DNA of 64,000 bases from Serratia sp. M24T3 (GTDB lineage: Bacteria; Pseudomonadota; Gammaproteobacteria; Enterobacterales; Enterobacteriaceae). Below, in pieces: positions 23,620-60,078 of this stretch (positions are counted from its first letter, which is position 1; each line of letters begins with the position of its first letter). A program made the position numbers and the translations under genes. The stretch covers positions 1 to 64,000 of the forward strand of contig NZ_AJHJ01000022.1 of NCBI RefSeq assembly GCF_000257645.1, read 5' to 3'. The notes under the pieces were generated by a model that was not told the origin of the DNA, did not search any database, and worked only from the letters and a program-made list of their open reading frames with translations.

Positions 23620-24561
23620 ATGTTAGACAAAACCATCCGAATTGCCACTCGACAGAGCCCGCTAGCCCTGTGGCAGGCACAATTTGTTCAAAGTCAGCTC
23701 AAAGCTTTTCATCCGGATTTGCAGGTTGAATTAGTCCCGATGGTCACCAAAGGTGACATCATTCTGGATACGCCACTGGCCAAAGTTGGCGGTAAAGGCT
23801 TGTTCGTCAAAGAGCTTGAGCTGGCCTTGCTGGAAGGACGCGCCGATATCGCCGTTCATTCAATGAAAGACGTACCGGTCGATTTCCCGAAAGGCCTTGG
23901 GCTGGTCACGATTTGCGAGCGCGAAGACCCGCGTGATGCTTTCGTTTCCAATCACTTTGCCAGCCTCGACGATCTGCCTCAGGGTAGCGTAGTAGGCACC
24001 TCAAGCCTGCGTCGTCAGTGTCAACTGCGTCAGCAACGCCCAGACCTGCAAATTCGCGATCTGCGCGGCAACGTTGGCACCCGTCTGGGTAAGCTCGATA
24101 ATGGCGATTACGACGCAATTATTCTGGCTGTCGCCGGTCTGAAACGCCTGGGTCTGGACTCACGCGTTCGCGCTGCGCTGACGCCGGAAGAGTGCCTGCC
24201 CGCCGTCGGTCAAGGTGCCGTGGGTATTGAATGCCGTCTCGACGACGTTCGCACTCGGGAGTTACTGGCTCCGCTGGCTCATGTCGAAACGACACTGCGC
24301 GTTGCCGCAGAGCGTGCGATGAACATGCGTCTTGAAGGCGGTTGTCAGGTTCCGATCGGCAGTTATGCGGAGCTTGAAGGCGATACCCTTTGGCTGCGCG
24401 CGCTGGTTGGCGCGCCGGACGGTAGTCAAATGGTGCGCGGCGAACGTCGTGGTCCGACATCCGAAGCGGAAAGCATGGGCATCAGTCTGGCGGAAGAGTT
24501 GTTGAACGCCGGAGCACGCGAAATATTGCAGGAAGTCTACCAGGGTAACGCACCAAAATGA
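23620..24561 (+). CDS. hemC: Hydroxymethylbilane synthase
   Basis: A 313-residue porphobilinogen deaminase (E. coli 313) joining four porphobilinogens into hydroxymethylbilane in haem synthesis. The dipyrromethane cofactor Cys is Cys242 (LEGGCQVP). The catalytic Asp is Asp84 (HSMKDVP), and the Arg-rich substrate-binding run [11 protein letters not shown] is at 128-138. The start ATG at 23620 has GGTAAGA upstream. Its end overlaps hemD by 4 bases (ATGA). Confidence 0.98.
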
Positions 24562-26487: not shown

Positions 26488-27681
26488 ATGCTACGTGTTC
26501 TCATACTGTTTCTAATCATTATTGCCGGAATTGTTGTTGGGCCGATGCTGGCCGGACATCAGGGCTATGTATTGATCCAGACCGACAACTATAACGTTGA
26601 AACCAGCGTTACCGGTCTGGTGATCATGGCGATTCTGCTGTTTGTGGTGCTGTTTTTGATCGAATGGCTGCTGCGCCGTTTATTCCGTACCGGCGCAAAT
26701 ACTCGTGGCTGGTTTGTGGGCCGCAAGCGTTCCAAGGCGCGTAAACAGACCCAGCGCGCGATGATCAAGCTGGCAGAGGGCGATCATCGTCAGATGGAAA
26801 AGCTGCTGACCAGCAACGCTGCCCATGCCGATCAGCCGATGGTGAACTATTTGCTGGCGGCCGAAGCGGCTTCGCAGCGCGGTGACGAGATTCGCACTAA
26901 CCAGTATTTGGAACGTGCCGCCGAGATTGCCGATACCGATCAGTTGCCGGTGGATATTACCCGCGTGCGTATTCAGCTGGCGCAGGGCGAGATCCACGCC
27001 GCGCGTCACGGTGTCGATCGCCTGATTGGCCTGTCGCCACGTCACCCTGAAATTCTGCGTCTGGCAGAACAGGCATACATGCGCACAGGTGCTTACGCGT
27101 CGCTGATGGAAATTTTGCCCTCGATGGCGAAAGCGAATATCTATGACGAAGAGCAGCTGCAACGTGTTCAGGAACAAGCTTACGTCGGCATGATGAACCA
27201 GTTGATGGCTGAGGAAGGCAGTGAAGGCCTCAAGCGCTGGTGGAAGAATCAGAGTCGTAAAACCCGTCACGAACCTGCATTACAGGTAGCAATGGCGGCG
27301 CACTTGATTCAATGCAACGATCACGATCTGGCACAGGAAGTCATTCTTGATGGCCTGAAACGCCAATACGATGAACGCCTGGTAGCGATGCTGCCGAAAC
27401 TGCGCTCAGGTAATTCGGATCAGATTGAGAAATTCCTGCGTCAGTCAATCAAGCAAAACGGTGCTACCCCGCTGCTAAGCAGCACGCTGGGACAAGTTTT
27501 GTTGAAGCATGGTGAATGGTTGCAGGCAAGTGAAGCGTTTCGTGAAGCTCTGCGACAACGGCCTGACGCCTACGATTACGCCTGGCTGGCCGATGCGCTT
27601 GATAAGCTGCACAAACCGGCTGAAGCGGCGGAGATGCGCCATCAGGGGCTGATGCTGACGATTAACAATTCGCAGCAATAA
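26488..27681 (+). CDS. hemY: HemY, TPR protein of the haem operon
   Basis: A 397-residue inner-membrane protein (E. coli HemY 398). Two N-terminal membrane spans (about residues 4-22 and 40-60) precede a basic loop and a cytoplasmic domain with tetratricopeptide repeats; the clearest near the C terminus is LGQVLLKHGEWLQASEAFREAL. It is proposed to act in late haem synthesis or delivery; it is not the protoporphyrinogen oxidase called HemY in Bacillus. It is last in the operon, with a strong terminator beyond. Confidence 0.94.
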   Translation: MLRVLILFLIIIAGIVVGPMLAGHQGYVLIQTDNYNVETSVTGLVIMAILLFVVLFLIEWLLRRLFRTGANTRGWFVGRKRSKARKQTQRAMIKLAEGDHRQMEKLLTSNAAHADQPMVNYLLAAEAASQRGDEIRTNQYLERAAEIADTDQLPVDITRVRIQLAQGEIHAARHGVDRLIGLSPRHPEILRLAEQAYMRTGAYASLMEILPSMAKANIYDEEQLQRVQEQAYVGMMNQLMAEEGSEGLKRWWKNQSRKTRHEPALQVAMAAHLIQCNDHDLAQEVILDGLKRQYDERLVAMLPKLRSGNSDQIEKFLRQSIKQNGATPLLSSTLGQVLLKHGEWLQASEAFREALRQRPDAYDYAWLADALDKLHKPAEAAEMRHQGLMLTINNSQQ

Positions 27682-27701
27682 CTCGCTTTAAAACTGTTTA
27701 A

Positions 27702-27729
27702 AGCTCGCCAATCTGGCGGGCTTTTTTTT
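27702..27729 (+). terminator. Terminator of hemCDXY
   Basis: AGCTCGCCA (27702-27710), loop ATC and TGGCGGGCT (27714-27722), with one G-T pair, are followed by TTTTTTT. It lies 20 bp beyond the hemY stop. Confidence 0.9.
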
Positions 27730-27763
27730 CGCCGCAGGATCGTGCGATTAATAAATCACAGGC

Positions 27764-27979
27764 AAAAAAAACACTTGCCGGAGAGACAAGTGTCAAAAAC
27801 AATCAGGTCTTGGACAACATGGGTAGTGTCACACTCAACGTTTTGTCTGCTGGTTGATAACGTTTGTCAGAGAGAACAATGGTTATCGGGCAGATAGACA
27901 AGAGACACTGTAATTTGGCTCTGCGTCATTCCCAGGGTTATGAAGCTACGCAATCATAAAAGGTGGAATGAGCATCTAC
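27764..27979 (-). ncRNA. glmZ: Small RNA GlmZ
   Basis: The minus-strand transcript would begin GTAGATGCTCATTCC (27979 downwards) and later contain GGAATGACGCAGAGCC and ACGTTGAGTG, matching recalled conserved blocks of E. coli GlmZ, the Hfq-binding RNA that activates glmS translation unless cleaved by RNase E/RapZ. It sits between hemY and the argX-hisR-leuT-proM tRNA genes, the E. coli location. A perfect hairpin ACACTTG/CAAGTGT (27771-27777, 27787-27793) followed by eight U bases ends it, giving about 216 nt (E. coli 207). The 5' end is set by the sigma-54 promoter spacing. Confidence 0.9.
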
Positions 27980-27990
27980 GACAGAGATAT

Positions 27991-28006
27991 TGCAGGGAGC
28001 GTGCCA
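27991..28006 (-). promoter_or_regulatory. Sigma-54 promoter of glmZ
   Basis: On the minus strand TGGCAC (-24), five bases and CTGCA (-12) match the RpoN consensus TGGCAC-N5-TTGCA with one change. The -12 GC is about 12 bases before the conserved first G of GlmZ at 27979. Sigma-54 control of glmZ is known in several Enterobacteriaceae including Yersinia. Confidence 0.85.
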
Positions 28007-28145
28007 GATCGGTTGATTACCTTATCCGACATGGCGATATAAAAATTATGCCTATGATAAATAAGTATAAATATTCAGTCATCCAAGAGCAGCATTTCCG
28101 GAATGAATTAACTTATTGTTAGAAAAGGATTTTTAACAGCAAATT

Positions 28146-28331
28146 TGTCGTCTTTCAGCGACACTATTAAGCACCAAGGTTTTTATCTTTTACTTTTCAG
28201 ATAGATGAGTGTCTCTTACCAACGACAATCAATACTGGAATTTAAAGTATTACCTTTCCTGCCGATTATACTCACAGTTAAATGTCTATTAAAAACAAAA
28301 ACTTAACAGTTAGTGTCGCTGAAAGGGAACA
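28146..28331 (-). promoter_or_regulatory. Array of GlrR (QseF)-type activator sites upstream of glmZ
   Basis: Two exact matches to TGTC-N10-GACA lie at 28146-28163 and 28210-28227, and a third with one mismatch (GACA to AACA) at 28314-28331. They lie about 170-350 bp upstream of the GlmZ start, typical enhancer distance for a sigma-54 activator. GlrR recognises TGTC-N10-GACA upstream of glmY and, in some genera, glmZ. A 15-bp inverted repeat (28152-28166, 28311-28325) is partly explained by sites 1 and 3. The A/T-rich DNA at 28010-28140 could bind IHF; no clean IHF site was seen. Confidence 0.75.
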
Positions 28332-28390
28332 GAGGATGATTTAAGGGAAAGTAATGAGGTAATTCAACGGAATATGACAAAGAGGAAAAA

Positions 28391-28417
28391 CAAAAAGCCC
28401 CGCATTTCTGCAGGGCT
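28391..28417 (-). terminator. Terminator of the argX-hisR-leuT-proM operon
   Basis: On the minus strand, AGCCCTGCA, loop GAAA and TGCGGGGCT are followed by TTTTTG. It begins 13 bp beyond the 3' end of the proline tRNA gene. Confidence 0.85.
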
Positions 28418-28429
28418 CTTTATTTGAAT

Positions 28430-28506
28430 TGGTCGGCGAGAGAGGATTCGAACCTCCGACCCACTGGTCCCAAACCAGTTGCGCTACCAAGCTGCGCTAC
28501 TCGCCG
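28430..28506 (-). tRNA. proM: tRNA-Pro (anticodon TGG)
   Basis: A 77-base cloverleaf with encoded CCA at the 3' end (28430-28432). The acceptor arm is CGGCGAG/CTCGCCG, the T arm contains GGTTCGAATCC, and the anticodon loop is TTTGGGA. It is the last gene of the four-tRNA cluster, as in E. coli. Confidence 0.97.
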
Positions 28507-28574
28507 ATGTCGTGCTTTTACTCTTTACAACCTGTCTTACGGATTACGTGGTACAGAGCTATTAAAGTTTTGTG

Positions 28575-28661
28575 TGGTGCGAAGAGAGGGACTTGAACCC
28601 TCACGTCCGTAAGAACACTAACACCTGAAGCTAGCGCGTCTACCAATTCCGCCACCTTCGC
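28575..28661 (-). tRNA. leuT: tRNA-Leu (anticodon CAG)
   Basis: An 87-base class II tRNA with long variable arm and encoded CCA. It begins GCGAAGGTGGCGGAATTGG; the anticodon loop is CTTCAGG and the T arm has GGTTCAAGTCC. Third in the cluster. Confidence 0.97.
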
Positions 28662-28713
28662 ACTGTCACAAACTTTACTCTTTACAACTCACACTCACTT
28701 CACAAGGAAGAAG

Positions 28714-28790
28714 TGGGGTGGCTAATGGGGCTCGAACCCACGACAACTGGAATCACAATCCAGGGCTCTACCAACTGAGCTATAGCCACC
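28714..28790 (-). tRNA. hisR: tRNA-His (anticodon GTG)
   Basis: A 77-base tRNA with encoded CCA and the extra 5' G typical of tRNA-His. It begins GGTGGCTATAGCTCAG, the anticodon loop is TTGTGAT, and the T arm contains GGTTCGAGCCC. Second in the cluster. Confidence 0.97.
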
Positions 28791-28856
28791 ATTGTATCTT
28801 TACTTCACGTCCGAAACTAACACCGCAACTCTTTGCGCAAAACCAACCGAGGTCAA

Positions 28857-28933
<77 letters not shown>

Positions 28934-43924: not shown

Positions 43925-44251
43925 TTACAGATTAGCGTTCAGGAACTCTTTCAACTGACCCTTCGACAGTGCGCCGACTTTAGTTGCCGCCACTTCGCCG
44001 CCTTTGAACAGCAGTAAAGTAGGGATGCCACGAATACCGTATTTTGGAGCGGTACCCGGGTTTTCATCGATATTCAATTTGGCAATGGTAAGTTTGCCTT
44101 CGAACTCGCTGGCAATTTCGTCCAGGATCGGAGCAATCATCTTGCACGGACCACACCATTCTGCCCAGAAATCGACCAGCACCAATCCATCGGCTTTTAA
44201 TACGTCTTTGTCGAAACTGTCATCAGAAAGGTGAATAATTTTATCGCTCAT
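43925..44251 (-). CDS. trxA: Thioredoxin 1
   Basis: A 108-residue thioredoxin (E. coli 109), the general cytosolic disulphide reductant. The active site WCGPCK is at residues 32-37 (Cys33, Cys36); the cis-Pro lies in [18 protein letters not shown] precedes the ATG. It is divergent from rhlB across 132 bp. Confidence 0.98.
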
Positions 44252-44383
44252 GTTCTACTCCAAAGGATTAACTTTACCTTGTTGATGTAGCATTAACCAA
44301 CAGTAGGTTGACTCTATTTCACCACGTTTATTTCAACGGATATGCTTTCGTAAAGCAATAGTTAGCTGATATTCTACCACACT

Positions 44384-59697: not shown

Positions 59698-59789
59698 CTT
59701 TATTCTCCTGCCTTTTGACTACAAGCGCAGAACATTATGCTGTTGTTCATATTTTCTTCCGCCTCATTCCGCTAAAAATTAACCTGACC

Positions 59790-59823
59790 AAAAAAAAACC
59801 CCCGGACCTTTCGGTGCGGGGGT
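59790..59823 (-). terminator. ilvGMEDA attenuator
   Basis: On the minus strand a stem AACCCCCGCACCG / GGTCCGGGGGTT (with a bulge) is followed by eight T bases. It lies between ilvL and ilvG and is the attenuator controlled by ilvL translation. Confidence 0.92.
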
Positions 59824-59844
59824 TCTTTTCAGGTTCAGGCTTGT

Positions 59845-59946
59845 TTAGTAAGCCTTTCTTCGTCCAAGTGCAGCCCCGCACGGTGGGATAATAATCACCA
59901 CCACACGAATAACGACTAGGCTTAGCACACGGACGAGAGCTTTCAT
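59845..59946 (-). CDS. ilvL: ilv operon leader peptide
   Basis: A 33-residue leader beginning MKALVRVLSLVVIRVVVIII and continuing PPCGAALGRRKAY. It is rich in Leu, Val and Ile codons as in E. coli IlvL (32 residues). Stalling at these codons when any of the three charged tRNAs is scarce prevents the downstream attenuator from forming. Confidence 0.95.
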   Translation of the reverse strand: MKALVRVLSLVVIRVVVIIIPPCGAALGRRKAY

Positions 59947-59988
59947 TTTTTGGTTTCTTAAATTCTTGTTTCGAACGATTGCCTACAG

Positions 59989-60017
59989 AGTTATCACAGT
60001 TAGATAAGCAAAGACAA
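59989..60017 (-). promoter_or_regulatory. Promoter of ilvLGMEDA
   Basis: On the minus strand, -35 TTGTCT (60012-60017), a 17-bp spacer and -10 ATAACT (59989-59994), about 45 bp ahead of the ilvL ATG, agree with the E. coli ilvGp2 arrangement. Confidence 0.65.
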
Positions 60018-60078
60018 CACTTTTCTTACGTTATCATCTAAGGCGACTGTGCAACAAATCTAGAAAAACTTAGCGTTT

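Follow-up and report, generated by a model that had tools for sequence, protein, structure and literature searches.

According to excerpts of PMC4585118, glmZ of E. coli is transcribed from a constitutive sigma-70 promoter, whereas glmY and glmZ of Yersinia pseudotuberculosis are both controlled by sigma-54 and GlrR and carry putative IHF sites (Gopel et al. 2011, as cited there). A preliminary description of the present locus had drawn the same contrast, which agrees with those excerpts. For Salmonella, each of the two sigma-54 promoters has a sigma-70 promoter overlapping it; glmZ is not lowered in an rpoN mutant, its level rises (excerpts of PMC3844500). The consensus of GlrR, also named QseF, is TGTC-N10-GACA, and glmY of Proteus has three putative sites (excerpts of PMC8745638). 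Publications on Yersinia and Salmonella have already described the promoter arrangement analyzed below; what is new is the shift of the third site, which is a small variant.

The locus lies in a 64-kb stretch of DNA, which was analyzed as a whole and is called the window here. Like glmZ of Yersinia pseudotuberculosis, as excerpted from PMC4585118, the window glmZ has a putative sigma-54 promoter and upstream GlrR-type sites, and glmY appears to share the regulator; the putative IHF sites of Yersinia have a degenerate IHF-like counterpart in the window. Like Salmonella glmZ (loci L051 and L117 of our survey), it has a -24/-12 element of the TGGCAC type, and GlrR is the activator named in the excerpts of PMC3844500. 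Different from Salmonella, in which the overlapping sigma-70 promoter is the stronger one according to the same excerpts, the window has no good -10 hexamer. With E. coli glmZ, the locus shares the RNA itself and the adjoining hemY gene, as seen in Escherichia locus L043; different from the window, L043 has neither a -24/-12 element nor a GlrR-type site, and the Escherichia-labelled locus L052 is of the sigma-54 type. The glmY promoters of E. coli and Proteus are similar to the window glmZ promoter with respect to sigma-54, GlrR (QseF) sites and possibly IHF; however, their product is the decoy RNA GlmY, and the Proteus promoter also drives the qseE-qseG-qseF operon (excerpts of PMC6075780 and PMC8745638). 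The E. coli glmY sites have spacings of 33 and 63 bp, compared to 104 and 64 bp for the sites of the window glmZ. The window contributes a clear case of glmZ control that is probably by sigma-54 alone; its displaced third site is a natural variant in spacing, useful for studying cooperation between enhancer sites.

The GlmZ RNA and its surroundings

The GlmZ small RNA is located at 27765..27979 on the (-) strand. In cmscan it matched RF00083 over the full length of the model (1–214) with 141.4 bits, above the gathering score of 60; with the GlmY model RF00128, the same copy scored 77.6 bits. It is the single copy over the cut-off in the genome. The second, weaker match to RF00083 (58 bits) is GlmY, a separate gene on contig C18 that scored 107.7 bits with RF00128. 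The last stem of RF00083 corresponds to a putative intrinsic terminator (27770..27794, (-) strand), which is composed of one 10-pair stem and a T run.

GlmZ is flanked by the convergent hemY gene (ORF at 26488..27681, (+) strand; PF07219) and, upstream, by a tRNA-Arg-His-Leu-Pro cluster (28430..28933, (-) strand; ARAGORN). Between hemY and tRNA-Pro, ARAGORN found no tRNA, and there is no ORF of 80 or more amino acids. The preliminary description had placed GlmZ in this apparently empty stretch and proposed an Rfam scan as the check; the scan confirmed the assignment. By hemY and the adjoining DNA, the genome falls next to Rahnella and one uncultured Enterobacterales, with about 75–79% nucleotide identity, and the hemY tree gave the same placement. 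No hemY was found in two loci of the window's genus, L122 (genome G005) and L124 (genome G003), the former giving only a 14-residue chance match; glmZ seemingly has a different downstream neighbour there. When a GlmZ segment was paired with the stretch preceding glmS of the same genome, 163 of 500 shuffles were as low in simple duplex energy, a measure that ignores structure and Hfq.

The -24/-12 element and the GlrR-type sites

The putative sigma-54 promoter of glmZ is TGGCACGCTCCCTGCA, located at 28006..27991 on the (-) strand. Its GG and GC lie 10 bases apart, the context fits TGGCAC-N5-TTGC with one mismatch, and it begins 27 bases before the GlmZ start. Relative to the start given by Rfam, the textbook place of a -24/-12 element is one base nearer than TGGCACGCTCCCTGCA. 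The element recurs in the same register in most other genera examined, at -27 from the GlmZ start or, in a few cases, at -28 or -29. The loose pattern itself occurs in the window at the chance rate (47 matches with two or fewer mismatches, 47.3 expected), and the weight of the element therefore comes from its position and conservation. Both are in favour of the earlier claim of a -24/-12 promoter at the right distance.

Three GlrR-type sites, to which no strand is assigned, are located upstream of the promoter. UAS1 (28146..28163) is centred at -175 and UAS2 (28210..28227) at -239, 64 bp above UAS1; both are perfect TGTC-N10-GACA copies, the only ones in the window. UAS3 (28314..28331) is centred at -343, 104 bp above UAS2, and has one mismatch. 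All three coordinates are exactly those given earlier. Using one matrix built from 271 GlrR-type sites of other genera, with the window's genus excluded, UAS1 ranked first among 63,983 positions, followed by UAS2 and UAS3. Copies with no more than one mismatch number 17 in the window, compared to 20.8 expected. As such short motifs are no commoner than chance at loose settings, the case for the promoter and the sites is one of position, combination and conservation. In the whole 5.25-Mb genome, an extended palindromic form of the motif, TGTCKYYNNNNRRMGACA, is found twice at glmY, twice at glmZ and nowhere else, and its reversed control at 5 places per strand; only the absence of TGTCKYYNNNNRRMGACA elsewhere is informative, because these very sites guided the design of the motif. 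No fourth site was seen 31–33 bp below UAS1: in the genus this slot has at most 4 of 8 letters, and in 67 other genomes it does not rank with the six best offsets.

Comparison of glmZ promoters among genomes and named loci

Two surveys were performed, one of 86 family genomes and one of 111 named loci; they share species and are not independent. RF00083 was over the cut-off in 82 of 149 family genomes and in 6/6 genomes of the window's genus. The 86 promoter regions were obtained by dropping eight of 90 matching genomes that were below the cut-off and adding four members of the genus. The -24/-12 element is present in 77 of them. The UAS1/UAS2 pair, which was sought at 62–65 bp, is present in 73/86 genomes, at 63 bp in 63 and at 64 bp in 10; among the 13 genomes in which it is missing, one (G114) has only 238 bp of upstream DNA. 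In the 67 pair-bearing genomes outside the genus, the strongest upstream peak is located 32 bp above UAS2. Sites with at least 7/8 letters at exactly this distance were found in 29/67; when the limits were relaxed to at least 6/8 letters at 31–33 bp, the number increased to 50, and 17 had no such site.

The named set came from one scan for the exact GlmZ 5′ motif. At least 117 loci match, and the 117 listed are a sample, with no Yersinia among the titles. Six loci were left out: L101 and L112 are false pattern matches, and L031, L077, L092 and L098 contain N or have less than 230 bp upstream. The other 111 were usable; we allowed up to three mismatches for the -24/-12 element and required at least 7/8 letters within 300 bp for the GlrR-type sites. 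Among the matches listed, the element is present in 87/111 loci and missing in 24. Of these 87 loci, 62 carry at least three GlrR-type sites and 21 carry two; the remaining four, which are all from Citrobacter, lack such sites. The 24 loci without the element, which include Klebsiella, Raoultella, Kluyvera and Escherichia, comprise 21 with no site, two with one and one with two. This sample of 111 named loci (among the matches listed) shows that a predicted sigma-54 element is the common state at glmZ and its absence the minority.

The element and the sites also go together. Among the matches listed, at least two sites accompany the element in 83/87 loci, and no site is present in 21/24 loci without it; GlrR/sigma-54 control is well supported by this co-occurrence. 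That GlrR and sigma-54 may drive glmZ here as in Yersinia, as suggested in the preliminary description, gains support from the comparison, in which promoter and sites recur as a set. With a probability of about 90%, judged from sequence comparison, we consider the window glmZ to be under GlrR/sigma-54 control. In the four Citrobacter loci without sites and the three element-less loci with one or two sites (among the matches listed), one component persists alone; element and sites can thus each outlive the other. The -24/-12-like Citrobacter loci without any GlrR-type site are L008, L065, L068 and L072, which may be intermediates toward a sigma-70-only glmZ.

Neighbouring sites of the 111 loci (among the matches listed) are separated by 63 bp (79 times), 32 bp (51), 33 bp (12), 64 bp (3), 31 bp (1) and 29 bp (1). 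In loci of the Pantoea/Erwinia/Mixta type (L015, L033, L081, L090, L106 and similar ones), the three-site spacing toward the promoter is 63 then 32, not 32 then 63; in a number of Pantoea, Erwinia and Mixta loci among the matches listed, a 63-bp pair is followed by one site 32 bp below it. The reversed order would fit loss from a four-site 32-63-32 array, at one end in some lineages and at the other end in others. It is confined to some lineages, as the pooled profile of the 67 other genomes has no peak at the inner slot.

A displaced third site in one genus

UAS3 is located exactly 104 bp above UAS2, with 7/8 half-site letters, in 6/6 genomes of the window's genus, which represent five species. 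The usual slot 32 bp above UAS2 has 0–3 of 8 letters in the six genomes. No pair at 104 bp was found in the other 80 of the 86 family genomes or in the 111 named loci (among the matches listed). Compared with the regularity of our survey (about 63 and 32 bp, which is not a published definition), the 63–64-bp part is kept and the 32-bp part is replaced by 104 bp, equal to 9.8–10.0 helical turns at 10.4–10.6 bp a turn. Different from glmZ, glmY of the genus keeps the 32-bp site spacing, with two sites in 3/6 genomes and three in 3/6. The shift of UAS3 looks like a genus-specific one, 72 bp outward and at glmZ only. Neither the displaced site nor glmZ of this genus was found to be treated in the titles and abstracts searched, which cover the literature without most subscription papers.

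The spacer between UAS2 and UAS3 (28228..28313, no strand assigned) is 86 bp in length, compared to 14 bp in promoters with the 32-bp spacing; the length is the same in 6/6 genomes. The ungapped identity of the spacer is 35–50% for most species pairs, 73% for G003 and G005 and 95% for the conspecific pair of genomes. In gapped alignments the pairs take equal gaps on either side, as equal lengths require. Between UAS1 and the promoter, the length ranges from 128 to 141 bp within the genus.

We lean towards a real function of the displaced UAS3. That UAS3 is a chance remnant, with UAS1 and UAS2 as the only working sites, is a serious possibility, yet one we do not favour. UAS3 alone is not significant: it scored 11.4 bits with the matrix, whereas the best decoy, at 24129, reached 11.2 bits, so that the margin is small, and the mark for the lowest 5% of the training sites is higher, at 13.1. 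Two sites only are present in the 21 named sigma-54-type loci mentioned above (among the matches listed), and conservation inside one genus is partly plain descent. However, the identical 104-bp spacing in all six genomes and the poor match at the usual slot speak against a remnant. Among the five species, 7/8 half-site columns are invariant, compared to 18/132 neighbouring columns (Fisher p 1.9e-5; neither species nor columns are independent).

Coding could also account for part of the site. In other species of the genus, one glycosidase gene, assigned to GH3 by Pfam on the G002 protein, lies between tRNA-Pro and glmZ (1059–3440 in L256, 3343–5892 in L257 and 2047–3201 in L122; the tRNA side was seen in L256 and L257). 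Its Leu-stop end overlaps the left half of UAS3 in G001, G002 and G005 and, by eye, in G003; owing to this stop codon, the TGT of UAS3 is partly explained in these four genomes by coding, without GlrR. In the window's species, the GH3 gene is absent from the interval between glmZ and tRNA-Pro, and tRNA-Pro follows directly. The hemY tree, which is based on one gene and from which G003 and G005 are left out (no hemY in the locus), places the window's species inside the gene-bearing species, with a fork support of 89/86. Because of this nested position, the GH3 gene was probably lost at this place in the window's species; TGT and GCGACA stayed. The retention of TGT in the two genomes of this species, which lack the GH3 gene here, argues against the remnant explanation. 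A functional UAS3 would offer a natural experiment on how freely the sites of a bacterial enhancer can be spaced.

Sigma-70-like sequences at glmZ

The best -10 hexamer overlapping the window promoter has 3/6 letters. Within the genus, the best hexamer has 3/6 letters in the conspecific genome G004, 2 in G001 and 3 in G005, and at least 5/6 in G002 and G003. All 24 named loci without the -24/-12 element have a 5/6 hexamer (among the matches listed). The 87 loci of the sigma-54 type (among the matches listed) have 5–6 letters in 49 cases, 4 letters in 31 and 2–3 letters in 7; as more than half of them have such good hexamers, overlapping sigma-70 promoters and dual control may be common.

Dual control, in which an overlapping sigma-70 promoter makes most of the GlmZ RNA and sigma-54/GlrR contributes little, would be in line with these 49 loci, with G002 and G003, and with the overlapping promoters and the rpoN mutant of Salmonella described in the excerpted PMC3844500. 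For the window we consider it unlikely: owing to the poor -10 hexamers of the window and its conspecific, and of G001 and G005, a sigma-70 start has little to build on here. Scanning of 27650–28450 identified two sigma-70-like pairs. The better one, TTAATA/TATAAT at 28292..28265, is located about 290 bp upstream, and we rejected it as the glmZ promoter because its TATAAT is absent in G004; the weaker pair (9/12) ends at 28054. Sigma-54-only control of the window glmZ is likely, as predicted from these comparisons. That another promoter has taken over glmZ and left the -24/-12 element and the sites as relics is very improbable, since the element, UAS1 and UAS2 are intact in six genus genomes despite wide divergence of the DNA in between, even if the four Citrobacter loci are partly decayed in such a way.

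IHF-like motifs

The preliminary description had also suggested looking for IHF sites. The result is mixed: at -72 to -74, IHF-like motifs with 0–1 mismatch are present in four other species of the genus (G001, G002, G003 and G005), but the window itself has only the degenerate TATCATAGGCATA (28047..28059, (-) strand, centre -74), with 2 mismatches to WATCAANNNNTTR. Among the 86 family genomes, near-consensus sites between -130 and -35 are present in 26 on the plus strand (shuffle mean 7.7, largest 14) and in 22 on the other strand (shuffle mean 8.7, largest 16); at -80..-65, on the strand of the TATCATAGGCATA slot, only 16/86 genomes have one. One more weak IHF-like motif, AAACAAAAACTTA, is located in the UAS2–UAS3 spacer at 28293..28305 on the (+) strand, with 1 mismatch. 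It occurs at the same offset in 6/6 genus genomes, with 1–2 mismatches of 9; as a putative IHF site it is only suggestive, and we treat it as a lead.

Regulators and a possible mechanism

The genome encodes one clear GlrR orthologue (85% identity over residues 4–444), RapZ (93% identity) and GlmS (84%). Its glmY gene has a -24/-12 element and two perfect GlrR-type sites. In the conspecific genome G004, which consists of two contigs, glmY and glrR are about 2.3 kb apart on one strand, as in E. coli.

For the window glmZ, we infer the start site and the dependence on RpoN from these elements. In the mechanism we propose, glmZ would be transcribed from the sigma-54 promoter upon activation by GlrR (QseF), a response regulator. 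GlrR would bind UAS1 and UAS2, plus the displaced, weaker UAS3, and would contact the polymerase via DNA looping, perhaps aided by IHF at about -74. The glmY gene, with its own sigma-54 promoter and two GlrR sites, would be co-regulated with glmZ, and, as in E. coli, glmS would be the target on which GlmY and GlmZ act together with RapZ.

For the third site we offer one further, tentative scenario, to which we give somewhat less than even odds. The distal site of glmZ, not that of glmY, would have moved 72 bp out and then been held at 104 bp although the spacer diverged, outlasting both the stop-codon overlap and the probable gene loss; a second bend at the IHF-like motif of the spacer may return the far site to the enhancer.

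Other elements in the window

Apart from glmZ, the window has one match to Rev39_5p_UTR (RF02744) at 59713–60022 on the (-) strand. This stretch encodes MKALVRVLSLVVIRVVVIIIPPCGAALGRRKAY, which we take to be a leader peptide of the ilvL type, and RF02744 may simply be the ilv attenuator leader. The TrxA 5′ UTR thermometer family (RF02773) matches the window at 44222–44309 on the (-) strand, with 93.3 bits.
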